64,000 bases of DNA. Source: Falsiruegeria mediterranea M17. Its GTDB lineage: Bacteria > Pseudomonadota > Alphaproteobacteria > Rhodobacterales > Rhodobacteraceae. Every line of letters starts with the position of its first letter. Positions within the stretch are counted from its first letter, which is position 1. The stretch is from positions 186,001 through 250,000 of the forward strand of contig NZ_ONZG01000002.1 in assembly GCF_900302455.1 (NCBI RefSeq), written 5' to 3'. A program made the translations under genes and the position numbers. Shown here piece by piece: positions 1,199 to 49,909 of the stretch. The notes under the pieces were generated by a model. That model was not told the origin of the DNA, ran no database searches, and saw only the letters and a list, made by a program, of their open reading frames with translations.

Positions 1199-2185
1199 AT
1201 GGCTGACGGTTTGATCGACATCAACGCAAAACCCACCGAAGAAATCTCGGTCCGTGAGGTGTTCGGTATCGACACCAACATGACGATCAAGGGATTTGCC
1301 GAGAGCTCGGACCGCGTGCCCGAAATCGACCACACCTACAAGTTCGACCCCGACACCACGATGGCGATCCTGGCCGGATTCAGCCACAACCGTCGTGTCA
1401 TGGTTCAGGGCTACCACGGTACGGGCAAATCGACCCACATCGAACAGGTCGCCGCGCGCCTGAACTGGCCCGCCGTCCGTGTGAACCTGGACAGCCATAT
1501 TTCCCGTATCGACCTGATCGGCAAGGACGCGATCAAACTGCGCGACGGCAAGCAGGTCACCGAATTCCACGAGGGCATCCTGCCCTGGGCCCTGCGCAAC
1601 CCGGTTGCGATCGTGTTCGACGAATACGACGCAGGCCGTGCTGACGTGATGTTCGTGATCCAGCGCGTTCTGGAACATGACGGTAAGCTAACGCTGATGG
1701 ACCAGAACGAGATCATCACGCCCAACCCGCACTTCCGCCTGTTTGCCACCGCAAACACCGTGGGTCTGGGTGACACCACCGGCCTCTATCACGGTACCCA
1801 ACAGATCAACCAGGCCCAGATGGACCGCTGGTCGCTGGTCGCGACGCTGAACTACCTCAGCCACGACGCCGAGACGATGATCGTCCTGTCGAAGGCACCG
1901 CATTACAACACCGCCGATGGCCGCAAGACCGTCAGCCAGATGGTCACCGTTGCCGACCTGACCCGGACCGCCTTCATGAACGGCGATCTGTCGACCGTCA
2001 TGTCGCCCCGGACGGTGATCAACTGGGCGCAAAACGCCGAGATCTTCCGCGATGTGGGCTATGCCTTCCGCCTGTCGTTCCTGAACAAATGCGACGAGCT
2101 GGAACGTCAGACCGTGGCCGAGTTCTATCAGCGCTGTTTTGACGAAGAGCTCCCCGAAAGCGCCGCCAGCGCGAGCATGGGGTAA
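1199..2185 (+). CDS. cobS: Cobaltochelatase subunit CobS
   Basis: AAA+ ATPase subunit of the aerobic cobaltochelatase, which inserts cobalt into hydrogenobyrinate a,c-diamide with CobN and CobT in vitamin B12 synthesis (cytoplasm). The 328-residue product matches the family length. A Walker A motif GYHGTGKST lies at residues 71-79 and a Walker B-like VFDEYD near 141-146. The frame extends upstream, but the ATG at 1199 gives the family N-terminus (MADGLIDI) and has purine-rich sequence (AGGATAAGGA) ahead of it. It heads an operon: a racemase-like gene begins 42 bases after the stop, then cobT. No cobalamin riboswitch was recognised upstream. Confidence 0.95.
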
Positions 2186-2227
2186 GCCCCGCGCTCCCCA
2201 TACGGCGTTCGCAAAAGGGGGGACGTG

Positions 2228-2923
2228 ATGCACATCGGTTTGATCGGAGGCATTGGCCCGGCAGCCACGGCAGCTTATTACCTAAAGCTGTCGGATCGCT
2301 GTCGCGCAGCGGGTGTTCCACTTGACCTGACCATCGTCAACACGGACATTCAGGTGCTTGCGTGCAATGCGCAGGCATACCGTCGCGACGATCAGGCACG
2401 CGTCTATGCAGATGTCATCACCCGCCTTGCCGCCTCCGGCGCTGAGGTGGCGGCTATCACCTCGATCGGTGGCAGCTTTTGCGAGGATGAAACCCGCGCA
2501 ATGTCTTCGCTGCCTTTGATCAGTGCGTTTGGGGCCTTGGACGATCACTTTGCCAATCAGGGGATCGCCAGCGTCGGCATCCTGGGCACCGAGACTGTCA
2601 TGCAAAGCCACCTTTATGGGCGGATGGAAAAAACCCGCACGGTTGTGCCGGACGGTCAGATCGCCGAGGTCGGCCAGGCCTATGTAGAGACCGCCCTAGC
2701 GGGGCGTGCAAACGATGCTCAACGAGACTTGTTTTTCACTGCAGGACGCAGAATGGTTGATGAAATGGGAGCAGATGCCGTGGTGTTGGCTGGCACCGAT
2801 CTGGGACTGGCCTTTGATGGTCAAGACCCCGGTTATCCGGTCATCGACACGATCGACGTGCATGTCGATCAACTCTTCCTTCTTGCCTCTGGCGCCCTGA
2901 AACTGCAGGATTTGTCCCTATGA
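2228..2923 (+). CDS. Aspartate/glutamate racemase-like protein lacking both canonical cysteines
   Basis: Member of the Asp/Glu racemase superfamily by its N-terminal GGIGPAAT signature (residues 7-14) and length (231 residues). Known racemases use two cysteines, in a CNTAH-type motif and a GCTE-type motif. Here the first reads TSIGGS (Ser79 in place of Cys) and the second reads LAGTDLG (Gly in place of Cys), so ordinary two-base racemisation is unlikely. The ATG at 2228 follows AAAAGGGGGGAC; a GTG three bases earlier is the alternative. The stop overlaps the cobT start as ATGA, so it is translationally coupled to cobT and sandwiched in the cobaltochelatase operon. Function unknown; a link to B12 synthesis is only inferred from position. 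Confidence 0.8.
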
Positions 2924-4797
2924 AAAAGCCCAACGACAACCCCGCCGATCCGTTCAAGAAGGCCCTGGCCGAGGCGACCAAGGTCATGGCCGACGATCCC
3001 GAGCTGAACGTCAGCTACACGGTTGATCCCTCGGGCGTCTCGGGCGACTCGATGCGGCTGCCGCAGGTCAGCCGTCGCATGTCCCGCGAAGAGGTTCTGC
3101 TGGCCCGCGGCACCGCTGACGCTCTGGCCTTGCAACGCAAGTATCACAACGCCGAAACCCACGCCCGCTATGCCCCTCCGGGCAATATGGCGCGCGATCT
3201 CTATGAGGCGATGGAAACCGCCCGGTGCGAGGCCATGGGCGCGCGCGACATGCCGGGCACGGCATCCAACATCGACGTCAAGATCACGCATGAGGCACTT
3301 CGCCGGGGCTATGACCAATGCACCCAGGCCGCCGATGCCCCCCTGCCCGTCGCGGCCGGTTACCTGATCCGCCATCTGGCCACCGGGCGCGACTTGCCCC
3401 CGGCTGCGGCCAACGTGATGGAACTGTGGCGCGGCTTCATCGAAGAGCAGGCAGGCGGCACGCTGGACAACCTCCAGGACATGCTCAGCGATCAGGCCGA
3501 GTTTGCCAAATTCGCCCGCCAGGTGATCGAGGATCTGGGCTATGGCGATCAGCTGGGCGATGACCCCGACGAGCTGGACGAAGACCAGGAGGATCAGGCC
3601 GAAGACGACGCCGAAGAGCAGCCCGATCCTGACAGCACCGGTCAAGATGATCAGGATCAGGAAGACGCCGACGCCAACCCCGAGCAGTCTCAGGAAGAGC
3701 AGCAGGACCAATCCCAGGCCCAGGTCTCGATGGACGAGATGGCCGATGAGGAGTTGGGTGAAGAGGCCGAAATGCCCGAGGGCGAAGCTCCGCTGGAGCC
3801 GCCCGCGCCGCAACCCGTCTCGGACGCGGACCCGGACTATCTGGTTTATCTCTCTGAACACGATGAAGAAATCGCCGCCGAAGATCTGGCCGAACCTGCC
3901 GAGCTGGAACGCCTGCGCGCTTATCTGGATCAGCAGCTGGAGCCACTCAAGGGCGCGGTAAGCCGTTTGGCCAACAAGCTGCAGCGCCGCCTGCAGGCAC
4001 AGCAGAACCGCAGTTGGGAGTTCGACCGCGAAGAGGGCATCCTGGACGCGGGCCGTCTGGCACGTGTTGTGGCCAACCCGACCACGCCGCTCAGCTTCAA
4101 GGTGGAAAAAGACACCGAATTCCGCGACACCGTGGTGACGCTCCTGCTGGACAACTCCGGCTCGATGCGCGGCCGCCCGATCTCGATCGCGGCGATCTGT
4201 GCCGATGTTCTGGCCCGCACGCTGGAACGCTGCAACGTCAAGGTTGAAATCCTGGGCTTCACCACTCGTGCTTGGAAAGGCGGTCAAGCGCGCGAGGCGT
4301 GGCTGAACGACGGCCGCCCACAACAGCCCGGCCGCCTCAATGACCTGCGTCACATCATCTACAAAGGGGCCGACTCGCCCTGGCGTCGTGCCCGTCCCAA
4401 TCTGGGCCTGATGATGAAAGAGGGTCTCTTGAAGGAAAACATCGACGGCGAGGCGCTGGAATGGGCGCACCGCCGGATGATGGCACGACGCGAGCAGCGC
4501 AAGATCCTGATGGTGATCTCGGACGGCGCGCCGGTCGATGACAGCACGCTCAGCGTCAACCCCGCCAACTATCTGGAAAAACACCTGCGCGACGTGATCG
4601 CCATGGTGGAAAAGCGCAAGATGGTGGAACTGCTGGCCATCGGCATCGGCCACGACGTGACCCGCTATTATGACCGCGCGGTAACCATCACAGACGTCGA
4701 ACAGCTGGCAGGTGCAATGACCGAGCAGCTCGCCGCGCTCTTCGACAGCGACCCCCGCGCCCGTGCCCGTGTCATGGGCATGAAGCGCGCAAGTTGA
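2920..4797 (+). CDS. cobT: Cobaltochelatase subunit CobT
   Basis: Partner of CobS in the aerobic cobaltochelatase; the CobS-CobT complex drives the CobN chelatase with ATP. The product has 625 residues. The first ~200 residues form the CobT N-terminal domain, residues ~205-310 are a strongly acidic, Asp/Glu/Gln-rich linker, and the C-terminal half is a von Willebrand A domain with the MIDAS sequence DNSGSMRG near residue 411. The start overlaps the preceding racemase-like gene by four bases (ATGA). This linker is why the opposite strand contains a long spurious frame. Confidence 0.95.
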
Positions 4798-37599: not shown

Positions 37600-38103
37600 T
37601 TACGCGCCCCCCGCGCCATCAAGGAAGGCCATCGGATCAAAGTCGTCTGGCAGCTCGTCCAGCCACTCTTCGGCCTTGGCCAGTTCTTCGGTCTCGTATG
37701 TCTCGGGCTTCCAGATCTGGAAGGTGTCACCGGCCGCGATAAAAAAGGCTTCTTTGTCCAGGTCGATTTTCTTGCGCAGCTTGGCGGGCAGGACCAGACG
37801 GCCAGTTTCATCCACGGCTGTGGGAAACGACTGACCGTGGAACATGCGCTGAAGCATCTTGCGCTCCATCGAGCCGCGCGGCAGCGCGTCGATCTTGGCA
37901 TCGACCTCGTCGATCGCCTCCATCGTGTAGCATTCCAGGAACTTGCGGCGGTGGTCGCCGTAGACAATCACAAGCTCGGGCTGATCGCCCGACTGCCAGT
38001 TCGGGTCGCCAGCCTCCAGAACACGACGAAACGAGGCAGGAATCGACACCCTGCCTTTCGTATCCACCTTATTCTGGCTCTCGCCTCTGAACCTGCGCGC
38101 CAA
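37600..38103 (-). CDS. mraZ: Transcriptional regulator MraZ
   Basis: DNA-binding repressor of the dcw cluster in other bacteria; forms a ring and binds TGGGN repeats. 167 residues with two SpoVT/AbrB-like halves: [14 protein letters not shown] near the N-terminus and [14 protein letters not shown] in the middle. I take the TTG at 38103 as start, preceded by AAAGGGAC, because the protein then begins LARRFRG at the domain edge. The ATG at 38181 would lie inside the terminator hairpin of the leader. Two groups of TGGGA repeats upstream fit autoregulation. Confidence 0.92.
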
Positions 38104-38149
38104 AACGACTGTCCCTTTCGCTATGCGCCAACTTGCTTTTCGCCCCCAG

Positions 38150-38195
38150 AAAGTAGAAACGGCGGGTTGATCTGCTGCCACTGATCAACCCGCCG
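38150..38195 (-). terminator. Strong intrinsic terminator just upstream of mraZ
   Basis: On the minus strand CGGCGGGTTGATC (38195-38183) pairs perfectly with GATCAACCCGCCG (38172-38160) across a ten-base loop, followed by TTTCTACTTTCT. It sits about 50 bases before the TTG start of mraZ, so it must attenuate transcription entering the dcw cluster. Confidence 0.85.
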
Positions 38196-38420
38196 CCTGA
38201 TCCCGCTGTGCGGGGATGTCCGACTGCGCGCGCCACCTGGGGGGATGTCTGCTCGCTCGCGCGCCGGATCTCTTGGTTCTGATGAAAGCGAAGCGCCTGT
38301 ATGAAACCTGCTTATTGTTGGTTTGGGGTCGTTTGCTGCCCCTGCTGTCTCGTTCTCATCCGATGAACAAGGGATGCCATGGGAATTCATGGAAATCAAT
38401 AGGAAATTTTGGAGGGATTC
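38150..38420 (-). ncRNA. UpsM-like leader RNA of the dcw cluster (candidate)
   Basis: In Rhodobacter sphaeroides an abundant small RNA, UpsM, comes from the 5' leader of mraZ by termination before the gene. Here the same arrangement is seen: a long non-coding region on the minus strand, ending at a perfect 13-base terminator stem directly before mraZ. A TTGACT hexamer at 38452-38447 could be a -35 box giving a start near 38417, but no good -10 follows, so the 5' end is a guess. The identity with UpsM is by position and architecture, not by sequence comparison. Confidence 0.5.
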
Positions 38421-38468
38421 GGGAAACTGAGTAAAACTGCTTACAGAGTCAATCCCCCAATAGCCAAG

Positions 38469-38713: not shown

Positions 38714-38991
38714 CCTCTACCCTGGGCAGCTGCATGGCCGGGCGCATCCATCGCCACCGCCCCTAGTAATCGAGTCGACGCCCCCACGCGACCGCGGTTT
38801 TTTTCAAGAGCCAAAACCGCGTCACGCTGCGTAAAAAAACGGCGTTCAATCATGTGTGACAAGAATTCGCCCGCCGCAGGAACGTATCAGGCACATCGAA
38901 ACCCCAATAAAATATGTGTCTTTCGCGAAGTCCGTGATTTTGTGGGACAATCCATGCAATTGCTGCATAGCAGCATTGATCCGGTAAGCTA

Positions 38992-39019
38992 TTGTGCAAT
39001 TGCAGCATTTGCTTATTTT
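38992..39019 (+). promoter_or_regulatory. Candidate promoter of the DUF1127-small RNA operon
   Basis: TTGTGC (38992-38997) and TATTTT (39014-39019) are separated by 16 bases, 60 bases before the DUF1127 start. Just upstream is a palindrome TGCTGC-ATA-GCAGCA and two copies of GCAATTGC. Related operons in Rhodobacter are driven by heat-shock sigma factors RpoHI/RpoHII; I cannot tell from sequence which sigma factor acts here. Confidence 0.35.
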
Positions 39020-39303: not shown

Positions 39304-39322
39304 GCGGAAAAAAGATACTGAA

Positions 39323-39394
39323 TTCAGACTCCTCTCCTCCTCCCTGGGGTCTGAGTTAAGCGGCGGCATCTTCCTCCTCCCTGATGTCGCCGCA
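39323..39394 (+). ncRNA. CcsR/cuckoo-type small RNA, unit 1
   Basis: Two hairpins: TCAGACTCC/GGGGTCTGA (39324-39332, 39346-39354) and GCGGCGGCATC/GATGTCGCCGC (39360-39370, 39383-39393). Both loops are pyrimidine-only and contain CCTCCTCCCT, complementary to Shine-Dalgarno sequences. This is the hallmark of the cuckoo RNA (CcsR) family of Rhodobacterales. It begins 20 bases after the DUF1127 stop and is presumably processed from the same transcript. Confidence 0.85.
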
Positions 39395-39509
39395 CCCAAA
39401 TACCGGCCTTTGATGCCGGAACGCAGATACATCCGGGTCTCTCCTCCTCCCTGACCTTGGATGTTGAAAGCACGCGGTGGCTTCCTCCTCCTCCCTGAAG
39501 CCGCCGCGA
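39395..39509 (+). ncRNA. CcsR/cuckoo-type small RNA, unit 2
   Basis: A short CCGGC/GCCGG stem (39403-39419), then CATCCGGGTC/GACCTTGGATG (39430-39439, 39453-39463) and the 12-base CGCGGTGGCTTC/GAAGCCGCCGCG hairpin (39473-39484, 39497-39508). Both large loops carry CCTCCTCCCT. Unit 3 is close to identical, indicating tandem duplication. Confidence 0.85.
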
Positions 39510-39623
39510 CCTCATACCGGCCTTGGACGCCGGAACGCGGATACATCCAGGTCTCTTCTCCTCCCTGACCCTGGATGTTGAAAGCGCGCGGTGGCTTCGT
39601 CCTCCTCCCTGAAGCCGCCGCGA
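39510..39623 (+). ncRNA. CcsR/cuckoo-type small RNA, unit 3
   Basis: Same plan as unit 2: CCGGC/GCCGG stem, CATCCAGGTC/GACCCTGGATG (39544-39553, 39567-39577) and CGCGGTGGCTTC/GAAGCCGCCGCG (39587-39598, 39611-39622). Loops are TCTTCTCCTCCCT-like and GTCCTCCTCCCT. Paired changes relative to unit 2 keep the stems intact. Confidence 0.85.
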
Positions 39624-39740
39624 CCTCATACCGGGCTCAAACCCGGGTTCGAATACATCGGGGCTCTCCTCCTCCCTGTCTCGATGTTGTCATGAACGGC
39701 GGTTCCCCTCCTCCTCCCTGGGAACCGCCGTTTTTTGTTT
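39624..39740 (+). ncRNA. CcsR/cuckoo-type small RNA, unit 4, with terminator
   Basis: A CCGGG/CCCGG stem, a weaker hairpin ACATCGGGGC with GTCTCGATGT (39655-39664, 39678-39687), and a perfect 13-base hairpin AACGGCGGTTCCC/GGGAACCGCCGTT (39695-39707, 39720-39732) followed by TTTTTT-rich sequence. The last hairpin serves both as CCTCCTCCCT display and as the terminator of the whole operon. Confidence 0.85.
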
Positions 39741-39788: not shown

Positions 39789-40079
39789 ATGCCCGCCTAT
39801 TTCTTTGCACAGCTGAACATCCACGACCCCGAAGGGTACCAGGAGTACCTAAAGGGGTTCATGCCGATCTTTGAGCGACACCAGGGGCGCATGCTTACGG
39901 TTTCATCCAAAACCGTCGACCGTGTCGAAGGGGAATGGCCCGAGGGCGGTGTGGTGTTGATGGAGTTTCCAGACCTGGAAACCGCCTATGCGTGGAAAAA
40001 CGACCCCGAATATGTCAAGCTTGCGCGCATTCGGCACGCAACGGCTTCAACCAACGCAATCATAGTAGACGGGCTTTAG
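39789..40079 (+). CDS. DUF1330 family protein
   Basis: 96 residues forming a ferredoxin-like dimeric alpha/beta barrel fold by family. The conserved pattern MPAYFFAQLNIHDPEGYQEY and WPEGGVVLMEFPDLETAYAW is typical of DUF1330. Function is not established. The ATG at 39789 has CAGGGAG upstream. It converges with the helicase gene, overlapping its stop by four bases. Confidence 0.88.
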   Translation: MPAYFFAQLNIHDPEGYQEYLKGFMPIFERHQGRMLTVSSKTVDRVEGEWPEGGVVLMEFPDLETAYAWKNDPEYVKLARIRHATASTNAIIVDGL

Positions 40080-42496
40080 AACGGCACATCGTCGCTGGCG
40101 GACAGGAACTTGGCCACGACCTTTTTGGTGCCTGCCTTTTCGAAATCGATCTCAAGCTTGTCGCCCTCAATCCCGATCACCGCGCCGTATCCAAATTTCT
40201 GGTGAAACACGCGCTCGCCAAGCGTGAAGCTGGATACCGCGTTCAGATCAATCACCGTGTTACGGCTTTCCTTGGGTTGCGACAGGCCCCGCTGCCCCTG
40301 CCGGGCCTGCAGGCGCTTCCAGCCCGGAGAGTTGTAGACATTCGCCTCGGCCGCGCGCGTTTCGATGCCTTGAGAACTGACGCCGCCCGCACCACCACCA
40401 TACAGGCCGGATGGGGTTAGGACATCAACGTGATCCTCTGGCAGTTCATCGACAAATCGCGATGGCATGGAGTTCTGCCATTGCCCGAACACCCGCCGAT
40501 TGGCTGCGAAGGAGATCGTGCACAACTCTTCGGCGCGGGTGATGCCCACGTAAGCCAGGCGGCGTTCCTCTTCGAGGCCCTTGAGACCGGATTCGTCCAT
40601 CGAACGCTGCGAGGGGAACAGGCCATCCTCCCACCCTGGCAAAAAGACGGCCGGGAATTCCAAGCCCTTGGCCGCGTGCAGGGTCATGATCGACACCTTG
40701 GCGCCATCTGATTCCTGCTCGTTGTCCATCACCAGGCTGACATGTTCCAGGAACCCTTGCAGGTTCTCGAAATTGTCGAGCTGGTTCACCAGTTCCTTGA
40801 GGTTCTCCAGCCGCCCCGGTGCTTCGGGCGTTTTGGTGTTCTGCCACATGGTCGTATAGCCGGATTCGTCCAGGATGATCTGGGCCAGCTCGATGTGGCT
40901 GACCTCGGGCTGGCCAAACGCCAACTGCGGCTCGACCCCGTCGTCGATCACCTCATCTTCATTGGCCTCGATCACAGGTCCGCGGGTCATCGACCGCCAG
41001 CGGGCCAGATCTTCGACCAGTTTACGCAAGGCACCTGCGCCCTTGCCCTTGATCAACCCTTGCTCCAGCGCAATCCGCGCGCCATCGACCAATGACACCC
41101 CGCTTGAGCGCGCTGCAATCTGAATGGTTTGCTGCGCCTTGTCGCCCAGGCCACGCTTGGGTGTGTTGACGATACGTTCGAATGCCAGATCATCGTCGGG
41201 CGAGACCACCAACCGGAAATACGCCATGGCATCGCGAATCTCCAACCGCTCATAGAACCGCGGGCCGCCGATCACCCGGTACGGCAGACCAATGGTCAGA
41301 AACCGGTCCTCGAACGCGCGCATCTGGTGCGAGGCGCGCACGAGAATCGCAATATCATCCAGGCTGAAAGAGCGCATGCCGCGGGTGCCGCCTTGCATGG
41401 CGTCAATCTCTTCGCCAATCCAACGCGCCTCTTCCTCGCCGTCCCAATGGCCGATCAGACGAACCTTTTCGCCCTCATCGGCTTCGGTCCAAAGCTCTTT
41501 GCCCAATCGGTCCGCGTTGCCGCGAATGACGTTCGAAGCAGCGGCCAGGATATGCGGGGTCGATCGATAGTTCTGTTCCAGCCGCACCACGTGGGCGCCC
41601 GGGAAGTCCTTTTCAAAGCGCAGGATGTTGCCAACCTCGGCCCCACGCCAGCCATAGATCGACTGATCGTCATCGCCGACACAACAGATGTTCTTGTGTG
41701 CCCCCGCCAGCAGCCGCAGCCACAGATACTGGGCCACGTTGGTATCCTGATATTCGTCCACCATGATGTAGCGGAACCAGCGCTGATACTGCTCGAGCAC
41801 GTCCGGATGCGCTTGGAAGATCGTGACGACATGCAAGAGCAGATCGCCGAAATCGACCGCGTTGAGCTCCTTCAGGCGGGTTTGGTACTGCGCGTATAGT
41901 TCCACGCCTTTGTTGTTATAGGCCGCGGCATCACCTGCGGGCACCTTGCCCGGTGTCAGTGCGCGGTTCTTCCAGCCGTCGATCACATTCAACAACAGCC
42001 GCGCAGGCCAGCGTTTGTCGTCGATCCCTGCCGCCTGCACCAGCTGTTTGATCAGGCGCAGCTGGTCGTCGGTATCCAGAATCGTGAAGTTCGACTTGAG
42101 CCCCGCAAGCTCGGCATGGCGGCGCAGCAGCTTGACGCAGATCGAGTGGAACGTGCCCAGCCACGGCATCCCTTCGGCCGGTTGCCCCAGCATACGGCCA
42201 ACGCGGTTCTTCATCTCGCGCGCGGCTTTATTGGTAAAGGTCACCGCCAGAATCTCGTTCGGGCGCGCCTTGTGCGTGTTGAGCAGATGCACGATGCGCG
42301 TGGTCAACGCCTTGGTCTTGCCTGTGCCGGCACCAGCCAGCATCAGCACCGGTCCATCCAGCATCTCGACCGCTTCGCGCTGCGCCGGGTTGAGGTCGTC
42401 CAAATACGGCACAGGCCGCGCGGCCATGGCGCGCGCGGACAAGGATGGCTGCTGTGCGGCGCCTTCAAAGGCGTCCATTTCATCGAAACTGCTCAT
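40076..42496 (-). CDS. uvrD: UvrD/PcrA-type DNA helicase
   Basis: 3'-5' superfamily 1 helicase of DNA repair and replication restart. 806 residues. Walker A AGAGTGKTKAL (~residues 54-64), VDEYQDTN (motif II), QNYRST (motif IV), VSIMTLHAAKGLEFP and AYVGITRAEE (motifs V-VI) are all present. The C-terminal ~50 residues form the Tudor-like element that starts GERVFHQKFGYGAV. The gene stands alone, divergent from the diguanylate cyclase gene. Confidence 0.95.
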   Translation of the reverse strand: MSSFDEMDAFEGAAQQPSLSARAMAARPVPYLDDLNPAQREAVEMLDGPVLMLAGAGTGKTKALTTRIVHLLNTHKARPNEILAVTFTNKAAREMKNRVGRMLGQPAEGMPWLGTFHSICVKLLRRHAELAGLKSNFTILDTDDQLRLIKQLVQAAGIDDKRWPARLLLNVIDGWKNRALTPGKVPAGDAAAYNNKGVELYAQYQTRLKELNAVDFGDLLLHVVTIFQAHPDVLEQYQRWFRYIMVDEYQDTNVAQYLWLRLLAGAHKNICCVGDDDQSIYGWRGAEVGNILRFEKDFPGAHVVRLEQNYRSTPHILAAASNVIRGNADRLGKELWTEADEGEKVRLIGHWDGEEEARWIGEEIDAMQGGTRGMRSFSLDDIAILVRASHQMRAFEDRFLTIGLPYRVIGGPRFYERLEIRDAMAYFRLVVSPDDDLAFERIVNTPKRGLGDKAQQTIQIAARSSGVSLVDGARIALEQGLIKGKGAGALRKLVEDLARWRSMTRGPVIEANEDEVIDDGVEPQLAFGQPEVSHIELAQIILDESGYTTMWQNTKTPEAPGRLENLKELVNQLDNFENLQGFLEHVSLVMDNEQESDGAKVSIMTLHAAKGLEFPAVFLPGWEDGLFPSQRSMDESGLKGLEEERRLAYVGITRAEELCTISFAANRRVFGQWQNSMPSRFVDELPEDHVDVLTPSGLYGGGAGGVSSQGIETRAAEANVYNSPGWKRLQARQGQRGLSQPKESRNTVIDLNAVSSFTLGERVFHQKFGYGAVIGIEGDKLEIDFEKAGTKKVVAKFLSASDDVPF

Positions 42497-49602: not shown

Positions 49603-49677
49603 GCGGGCGTAGCTCAGGGGTAGAGCATAACCTTGCCAAGGTTAGGGTCGGGCGTTCGAATCGCCTCGCCCGCTCCA
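49603..49677 (+). tRNA. tRNA-Gly (GCC), copy 1
   Basis: Cloverleaf with acceptor GCGGGCG/CGCCCGC, anticodon loop containing GCC (AACCT-TGCCAAG arm), TTCGAAT T-loop, discriminator T and encoded CCA. 75 bases. First of three tandem copies. Confidence 0.97.
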
Positions 49678-49717
49678 TTGAGAACCGGATCACCCATCCG
49701 GGCACAGACTTGATAGT

Positions 49718-49792
49718 GCGGGCGTAGCTCAGGGGTAGAGCATAACCTTGCCAAGGTTAGGGTCGGGCGTTCGAATCGCCTCGCCCGCTCCA
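49718..49792 (+). tRNA. tRNA-Gly (GCC), copy 2
   Basis: Identical over all 75 bases to copy 1, including CCA. The 40-base spacer contains CGGATCACCCATCCGG, which recurs before copy 3. Confidence 0.97.
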
Positions 49793-49834
49793 TCAAGATC
49801 CGGATCACCCATCCGGAGACAAAAGATATAGGTT

Positions 49835-49909
49835 GCGGGCGTAGCTCAGGGGTAGAGCATAACCTTGCCAAGGTTAGGGTCGGGCGTTCGAATCGCCTCG
49901 CCCGCTCCA
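49835..49909 (+). tRNA. tRNA-Gly (GCC), copy 3
   Basis: Identical to copies 1 and 2. The spacer before it repeats CCGGATCACCCATCCGG, showing that the duplicated unit included flanking sequence. Confidence 0.97.

Follow-up and report, generated by a model that had tools for sequence, protein, structure and literature searches.

In a 64-kb stretch of the Falsiruegeria mediterranea M17 genome (the window; coordinates count from its first base), a gene for a small DUF1127 protein is followed by eight stem-loops with near-identical anti-Shine-Dalgarno (anti-SD) loops, and the evidence from sequence and conservation supports this locus as the Roseobacter counterpart of ccaF1-CcsR1-4 (cuckoo/CIN1) of Rhodobacter sphaeroides. 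We consider it probable that it functions as a cuckoo (CIN1) locus, in which a DUF1127 mRNA from a stress promoter carries a 3' UTR of loop RNAs that block ribosome sites, chiefly those of uptake genes. In this model, one stress-type promoter would give an mRNA encoding the small DUF1127 protein followed by a 3' UTR of four two-hairpin RNAs; RNase E and the DUF1127 protein would cut the transcript into small RNAs, by analogy with R. sphaeroides; each stem would display the loop UCCUCCUCCCUG, which would pair with CAGGGAGGA-type ribosome sites in mRNAs and block translation; repetition of the unit would supply more loops per transcript; and the main targets would be uptake genes, above all those for periplasmic solute-binding proteins. 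Stress induction, processing and the role of the DUF1127 protein are here carried over from papers on R. sphaeroides, and the repression of uptake genes by the array is a prediction from complementarity.

Few targets have been reported for CcsR/cuckoo RNAs, and DUF1127 proteins are disputed as RNA binders. The locus yields a checkable list of 38 target genes in the window's genome, 13 of them with likely orthologues that keep the ribosome site, together with a natural series of arrays, mostly of 4 to 14 loops, from marine bacteria that can be cultured, and it adds a conserved operator upstream of the DUF1127 gene. If the model is true, it would tie a stress RNA to the way in which an abundant group of marine bacteria takes up nutrients.

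Structure of the array

The array begins 17 bases 3' of the DUF1127 gene, and the locus and its neighbours comprise the following features.

37600..38181, - strand: divergently oriented gene that we take to be mraZ, with which the dcw cluster starts (homologue next to the array in 68 of the best 80 of 196 loci)
38952..38978, + strand: operator-like element CCATGCAATTGCTGCATAGCAGCATTG (motif in 78 of the best 80 of 196 loci, also in genomes G024 and G029)
38990..39019, + strand: candidate promoter TTGTGC-N16-TATTTT, fitting the RpoHI/RpoHII TTG/TAT signature (PMC10673084)
39079..39303, + strand: DUF1127 gene, 74 aa, CcaF1-like (PF06568, E 9.1e-14, 51.4 bits)
39321..39357, + strand: unit 1, hairpin A, anti-SD loop (fold)
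39360..39393, + strand: unit 1, hairpin B, anti-SD loop (fold; CcsR1 39.0 bits over 39320-39398)
39403..39419, + strand: small spacer hairpin 3' of unit 1 (local fold; spacer class conserved)
39428..39466, + strand: unit 2, hairpin A, anti-SD loop (fold)
39474..39507, + strand: unit 2, hairpin B, anti-SD loop (fold; CcsR1 28.5 bits over 39426-39512)
39517..39533, + strand: small spacer hairpin 3' of unit 2 (local fold)
39542..39580, + strand: unit 3, hairpin A, variant loop TTCTCCTCCCT (fold)
39588..39621, + strand: unit 3, hairpin B, anti-SD loop (fold; CcsR1 26.7 bits over 39551-39626)
39631..39646, + strand: small spacer hairpin 3' of unit 3 (local fold)
39655..39690, + strand: unit 4, hairpin A, anti-SD loop (fold)
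39695..39737, + strand: unit 4, hairpin B and intrinsic terminator (fold; CcsR1 34.9 bits over 39651-39736)
40076..42496, - strand: uvrD/pcrA-type helicase gene, convergent neighbour (PF00580, 308.6 bits; homologue in 72 of the best 80 of 196 loci)

Folding of the region places eight stem-loops at 39321-39737 on the + strand, bearing out the number claimed by an earlier, sequence-only reading of this DNA. CTCCTCCC occurs eight times in the window, every copy lying in the array on the + strand with starts within 375 bases, and was not found on the - strand of the 64 kb. For the 442 bases that follow the DUF1127 stop codon, the folding energy is -197.4 kcal/mol, against a mean of -139.3 (sd 6.0) for 100 dinucleotide shuffles, none of which was equally stable (z = -9.64). 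The plan of a unit is a large hairpin A, a large hairpin B and a small GC hairpin; unit 4 closes with a terminator, and the T run at the end of its last hairpin agrees with the terminator role that the same reading had proposed.

That reading had also described the loops as uniform and pyrimidine-only, which applies to most of them: CCTCCTCCCT is present in seven of the eight, but the fifth loop is TTCTCCTCCCT (TCTCCTCCCT), and the sixth has a G at its edge (TTCGTCCTCC) that is base-paired in the predicted fold. Small stems between the units do form at 39403-39419, 39517-39533 and 39631-39646 in local folds, but the first two are absent from the whole-region fold, where spacers 1 and 2 pair with each other, so that in the window sequence the small hairpins are a local alternative. 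Units 2 and 3 (114 and 112 bases) are near copies across both large hairpins; the view that their differences preserve the stems is correct for one change, from G-U to A-U in the stem of the first hairpin, which keeps the pairing and shifts the bulge (as read from the two folds), but two further changes lie in or at loops, and the small third stem has diverged more than the large hairpins.

Conservation of loops, stems and spacers

An alignment anchored on CTCCTCCC comprised 515 hairpins, 470 of them distinct, of the window and its relatives. The loops are near-invariant, with T at +8 kept in 447, T at -2 in 440 and C at -1 in 432 of the 470 distinct hairpins outside the anchor itself, whereas stem columns (-22 to -6 and +10 to +29) hold at most 0.42 bits. 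The stems vary in sequence yet remain paired: in a dereplicated set of 110 hairpins with flanks less than 65% alike, 75% have stems of at least 8 pairs, compared with 15% after 5' and 3' flanks were exchanged among hairpins. This combination of a conserved CCUCCUCCC-type loop with helices lacking sequence conservation, by which the cuckoo/CIN1 RNAs are defined, is also found in the window array. In addition, the small third hairpin belongs to the unit; a folding energy of -3 kcal/mol or lower is reached by all 176 inter-unit spacers (median -9.1), as against 49% of shuffled spacers (median -2.85).

Most arrays end like the window array, TTTT standing directly 3' of the last hairpin in 71 of the 79 arrays with at least four loops. 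The terminator-like end would suit an array that merely stabilises and terminates the 3' UTR of the DUF1127 mRNA, without action on other RNAs; a single hairpin suffices for a terminator, however, where 4 to 14 are present, and a fixed loop sequence would be unneeded, which makes this explanation very unlikely. That the array is a translated repeat peptide or a DNA-level repeat element seems hardly credible, even though the window array is overlapped in part by two antisense ORFs (101 and 173 aa) and at least one of the six frames is open throughout in 27 of the 79 arrays: no frame is open across the entire window array, the stems compensate, and the distances between loops are not kept modulo 3 within units (91, 83 and 80 in the three classes, an even distribution; 78, 59 and 39 between units, less even). 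A conserved translated frame, which the sequence-only reading had named as the observation that would speak against it, is therefore not what the arrays display.

Family assignment

At gathering scores, Rfam reports only four tRNAs in the 64-kb window. In a permissive search, CcsR1 (RF02791) matches all four units at 39.0, 34.9, 28.5 and 26.7 bits (E 1.3e-7 to 5.6e-4), and ar14 (RF02344) matches two stretches of the array at 52.7 and 43.0 bits, short of its gathering score of 58.8, with 52.7 bits as its best score across the window's genome. A covariance-model search, proposed earlier as a check on the cuckoo assignment, thus gave a mixed outcome, since every unit matches CcsR1 and every score, the best unit's 39.0 bits included, stays below the gathering cut-off of 65.3 bits; this shortfall counts against our explanation. 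Among 61 genomes, 30 have an RF02791 match (28 of 37 from the same genus or family, the window's own included, and 2 of 24 more distant ones), and only two (G024 and G029) pass the gathering score, which suggests that the Rfam model is narrow for the CcsR/cuckoo family. In the part of PMC3927594 available to us, a covariance model is described as inadequate for families that keep the loop alone. Single weak RF02791 matches can be chance, because one of 14 control genomes, that of Thermus composti, gave such a match and locus L050 (G047) has no CTCCTCC loop despite its match.

Orthology to the CcsR locus of R. sphaeroides, which the sequence-only reading had put forward, is nevertheless supported, because a DUF1127 gene lies upstream, four two-hairpin units all match CcsR1, and the flanking genes are conserved; four two-hairpin units 3' of a DUF1127 gene with a terminator at the end, the arrangement of ccaF1-CcsR1-4, is the one found in the window. 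A second ar14-like match in the same genome, at G000:C31:126108-126240 (L085, 30.7 bits), was dropped, having a different pyrimidine-rich loop and no CCTCCTCCC. The seven other places with CTCCTCCCTG in this genome do not fold into an array-type hairpin, and five of them are antisense to ribosome sites. Among the literature matches listed, none dealt with a CcsR-type RNA in Roseobacters by its title or the start of its abstract, and the accessible text of a paper on R. pomeroyi sRNAs (PMC4809877) does not contain Rhodobacter, Shine, mraZ, uvrD or hairpin.

Linkage to the DUF1127 gene and loop number

The association with a DUF1127 gene that characterizes the cuckoo/CIN1 locus holds for the window and well beyond it. 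Searching from the RNA side (30 loci, one per genome, the window's own included), we found that 26 of the 30 have a DUF1127 gene in the same orientation, with its end 16-94 bases 5' of the first loop motif; the four loci without a DUF1127 match, L032 (seven loops), L046 and L047 (three each) and L050 (none), count against our explanation. From the protein side, at least three loops lie 3' of the DUF1127 gene in 79 of the best 80 of 196 confirmed loci, a count subject to selection because the query alignment was built from 20 proteins drawn from the 30 loci most similar to the window protein, every one of which bears loops, so that the RNA-side figure is the independent count. Loop numbers are even in 72 of these best 80 of 196 loci, with six loops in 35, eight in 17, four in 15, five in 4, ten in 3, fourteen in 2, and one, three, nine and eleven in one locus each; three records named Salipiger bermudensis have 14, 8 and 10. 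The array of Ruegeria pomeroyi strain SZCCDBG043 (L096) counts six loops. The DUF1127 proteins of the window and of Tropicibacter sp. R16_0 (L087) share 99% identity. CTCCTCCC was not found in the 3-kb loci of the five other DUF1127 genes of the window's genome.

L032 (G026:C11:660952-664031), with seven anti-SD loop motifs and no DUF1127 match in its 3 kb, is possibly a stand-alone array, and L157 (Sulfitobacter mediterraneus), a DUF1127 locus with one recognisable loop and an operator-like element unusually far upstream (-402), possibly reflects array loss. In genome G010 (L168, G010:C6:18500-27500, at about 2100-4100), four tandem DUF1127 genes lie between mraZ and uvrD, and the loop motif follows 28-30 bases past the open frame of three of them; protein and hairpins seemingly duplicate together, which suggests that they were duplicated as joint modules in this genome.

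The tightness of this linkage from both sides and the gene and loop layout of G010 also favour a different role for the hairpins, in which they would chiefly offer binding sites to the DUF1127 protein; such a platform on the protein's own mRNA would titrate the protein or feed back on its level, with base pairing secondary. The R. sphaeroides CcaF1 protein is reported, in the passages available to us, to bind RNA and to affect CcsR maturation. In contrast, stem sequences vary freely while the loop is fixed to the anti-SD sequence, and the excerpted text of PMC12501420 has DUF1127 proteins acting through protein contacts, with complementation by CcaF1, and cites no RNA binding for YjiS. We therefore regard a platform as unlikely.

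Genomic neighbourhood

Five longer stretches from other genomes extend the comparison of flanking genes, mraZ being matched in four (in G175 over 46 residues only) and uvrD in three. Of the two genomes above the CcsR1 gathering score, G024 has mraZ and uvrD flanking the locus as in the window, and G029 has mraZ nearby and no uvrD within 10.5 kb; neither gene was matched in the longer stretch of G005. Upstream of mraZ, at 38377-38427, direct repeats of the type TGGGA/TGGAA/AGGAA resemble MraZ boxes. The R. sphaeroides UpsM RNA derives from the mraZ 5' UTR (excerpt of PMC7866481), so the mraZ-array intergenic region may, by analogy, be shared by two stress sRNAs, one of CcsR type and one UpsM-like.

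Two observations stand apart from the array itself. A record titled Nocardioides marinus (L155, JAHVJD010000007.1) holds what is clearly a Roseobacter locus of DUF1127 gene and array, flanked by mraZ and uvrD, and is probably misnamed or contaminated. At 49603-49906 the window has three tandem tRNA genes with identical scores and the anticodon GCC (read from the alignment), that of glycine.

Promoter and operator

Searching for a 19-mer with at most four substitutions within 450 bases upstream, we located the operator-like element, near CYATGCANTTGCTGCATAGCRGCATTG, mostly 100-140 bases 5' of the DUF1127 gene. The element resembles PhaR-like sites of the same genome, the neighbours of which we take, from their translations, to encode phasin, PhaR and PHA synthase. 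It also resembles the reverse complement of the VtlR-binding motif CAATGCAGCCATGCA (given in an excerpt of PMC12595884), sharing 13 of 15 letters in the window and 14 of 15 in some relatives; LsrB/VtlR is apparently unique to Rhizobiales according to part of PMC11975290, which counts against VtlR. The candidates for the regulator of this operator are thus a PhaR-like and a VtlR/LysR-like protein. Elsewhere in the genome, a similar site, TTCTGCATTGCAGCA (G000:C22:491581-491595, L183), lies about 260 bases 5' of the matched part of a second DUF1127 gene (C22:491214-491318), which is without a hairpin array.

On the 3' side of the operator stands TTGTGCA-N2-TGCAGCA, followed by TATnTT, and a pair of the type TTG[TC]G-N-TATnTT is found in 67 of 79 promoters, 66 of them at identical spacing. 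The RpoHI/HII signature consists of TTG at -35 and TAT at -12 (figure legend in PMC10673084), and an RpoHI/HII promoter precedes ccaF1 (figure legend in PMC10253847).

Predicted targets

Because the loops share the sense of the 16S tail, they should bind the ribosome sites of mRNAs and not ribosomes; the loop core UCCUCCUCCCUG is the complement of CAGGGAGGAGGA. The 10-mer loop complement CAGGGAGGAG occurs at seven places outside the array, five of which are ribosome sites 5-9 bases 5' of ATG that precede ORFs of 178 to at least 497 aa. The pattern AGGGAGGA-N4-11-ATG is present at 41 places in the window's genome, and the reversed pattern at none; leaving out two places in the array and one duplicate gives 38 genes, every ORF having at least 75 aa. 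By Pfam, 14 of the 38 encode solute-binding proteins (DctP 4, Peripla_BP_6 4, TctC 3, and SBP_bac_5, NMT1_3 and Peripla_BP_4 one each); together with five further genes, for permeases or transporters, uptake components number 19. Among control genes behind AAGGAGGT or AAGGAGGA sites, with an ORF of at least 40 aa in 30 of the 36 places, 1 of 30 encodes a solute-binding protein (Fisher p = 9e-4 for solute-binding proteins and 2.6e-5 for uptake components, or 1.4e-4 if a second control is counted as transport). As a site before ATG, AGGGAGGA (38 genes) is commoner in this genome than AAGGAGGT (20 places) or AAGGAGGA (16 places). GGGAGGA stands upstream of the start in 9 of 18 DctP genes of the genome, compared with 1 of 49 long window ORFs, the DctP starts having been picked by script on the best ribosome-site motif, a choice that favours finding one. 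In a related genus (G065), 13 of 25 AGGGAGGA genes are likely orthologues of members of the window-genome set, 62-99% identical over partial sequence, and keep the identical ribosome site.

We computed duplexes of these sites with the loop and with the 16S tail, the latter in the sequence that we take to be that of the tail. The loop outbinds the tail on all 38 AGGGAGGA sites (means -17.8 and -13.0 kcal/mol), on none of 14 AAGGAGGT sites (-11.3 and -14.4 kcal/mol) and on 10 of 16 AAGGAGGA sites (-13.2 and -13.2 kcal/mol); since the AGGGAGGA class was chosen as the loop complement, these energies show the size of the effect and not its use. The ribosome site of the DUF1127 gene itself hardly pairs with the loop (-3.8 kcal/mol).

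The association between AGGGAGGA and uptake genes is wider than the array. In the array genomes G065, G175 and G029, about 31 of 70 AGGGAGGA genes match solute-binding families among the matches listed, and in genomes without an RF02791 match (G037, G040, G050 and G051) at least 17 of 59 do so; both figures sum separate Pfam families, the 25 commonest, and assume that no protein is counted twice, and the second group of genomes is defined by RF02791 alone. For these counts, array places (two in G065, three in G029), one duplicate in G175 and ORFs below 40 aa (6 of 76 and 5 of 64) were dropped, and 16 of the 20 listed non-array places of G029 were used (23 of its 29 places being listed). Among the genomes without a CcsR1 match, G037 has 30 AGGGAGGA sites, as rich as the array genomes, and the others have 7, 8 and 19. 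With solute-binding genes common behind AGGGAGGA in such genomes, the link between array and uptake is suggestive, not proven; the AGGGAGGA class may exist for a different reason, or anti-SD RNAs of other kinds may read it. As an analogy, the link fits a general alphaproteobacterial habit, seen in the action of NfeR1 and AbcR on transport genes: NfeR1 silences some mRNAs through three anti-SD loops, and its predicted targets are mostly transport genes (PMC7143759, in part).

The breadth of the uptake signal would also be expected if that signal were incidental and the array served as a sponge or regulator for one or few RNAs, not as a broad repressor. In line with such a role, few CcsR targets are reported in the R. 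sphaeroides literature available to us, and a Caulobacter sponge RNA pairs with sibling sRNAs bearing an anti-SD motif (excerpt of PMC12559287). However, the array loops have the same sense as anti-SD sRNAs, so that no pairing with those sRNAs is expected, and of the seven places outside the array that match the loop complement over all 10 bases, five are ribosome sites; we judge a sponge to be distinctly improbable. Returning to the repression of uptake genes, the CcsR RNAs of R. sphaeroides are reported to target flhR and to affect C1 metabolism, glutathione and pyruvate dehydrogenase, in the parts of those papers available to us; that uptake genes are not the reported target counts against our explanation. 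We raise, with considerable doubt, a more far-reaching version of it: AGGGAGGA sites in Roseobacters would mark uptake genes with a common tag, bound less well than canonical sites by the ribosome but ideal for a CcsR-type loop, so that a stress transcript with 4-14 loops would shut down many solute-binding proteins at once, the number of units setting the strength and an activator of VtlR/LysR or PhaR type tying the response to carbon or redox state.

Comparison with known systems

As in CcsR1-4/ccaF1 (RSP_6037; RF02791), the DUF1127 gene of the window precedes four units, each of two hairpins with CCUCCUCCC loops, and the last unit closes with a terminator; the candidate promoter of the window fits a signature of RpoHI/HII type. 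The mraZ and uvrD flanks are shared in so far as they occur in G024, which exceeds the Rfam score. In contrast to CcsR1-4, the window stems have diverged so far that all units score below the gathering cut-off, a small third hairpin is seen between the window units, and the host is a marine Roseobacter. Free stems, a fixed loop motif and the DUF1127 link are likewise common to the window and the cuckoo family or CIN1 locus (Reinkensmeier and Giegerich 2015, as cited in parts of PMC4504443 and PMC10253847); whereas the cuckoo motif is summarised as 2-4 hairpins in an excerpt of PMC4504443, we counted 1 to 14 loops, mostly 4, 6 or 8.

Similar loops occur in other alphaproteobacterial RNAs. The alpha-r14/NfeR1 RNA of Sinorhizobium (RF02344) has identical CCUCCUCCC anti-SD loops on variable stems, and most of its predicted targets, in the source as excerpted, are transport mRNAs; unlike the window array, a 3' UTR array behind a DUF1127 gene, NfeR1 is a stand-alone sigma-70 sRNA with three hairpins. 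AbcR1/AbcR2 and alpha-r8 (SisA-D, MmgR) are, like the window array, alphaproteobacterial sRNAs with anti-SD-like motifs, but, going by literature descriptions, they are not known to form hairpin arrays. AbcR1 acts on many transport genes (PMC7486931, in part). The CcsR/cuckoo kind of RNA is already known, and what the present locus and its relatives add to it is a copy-number series, a spacer hairpin, a promoter and operator, and a predicted target class.
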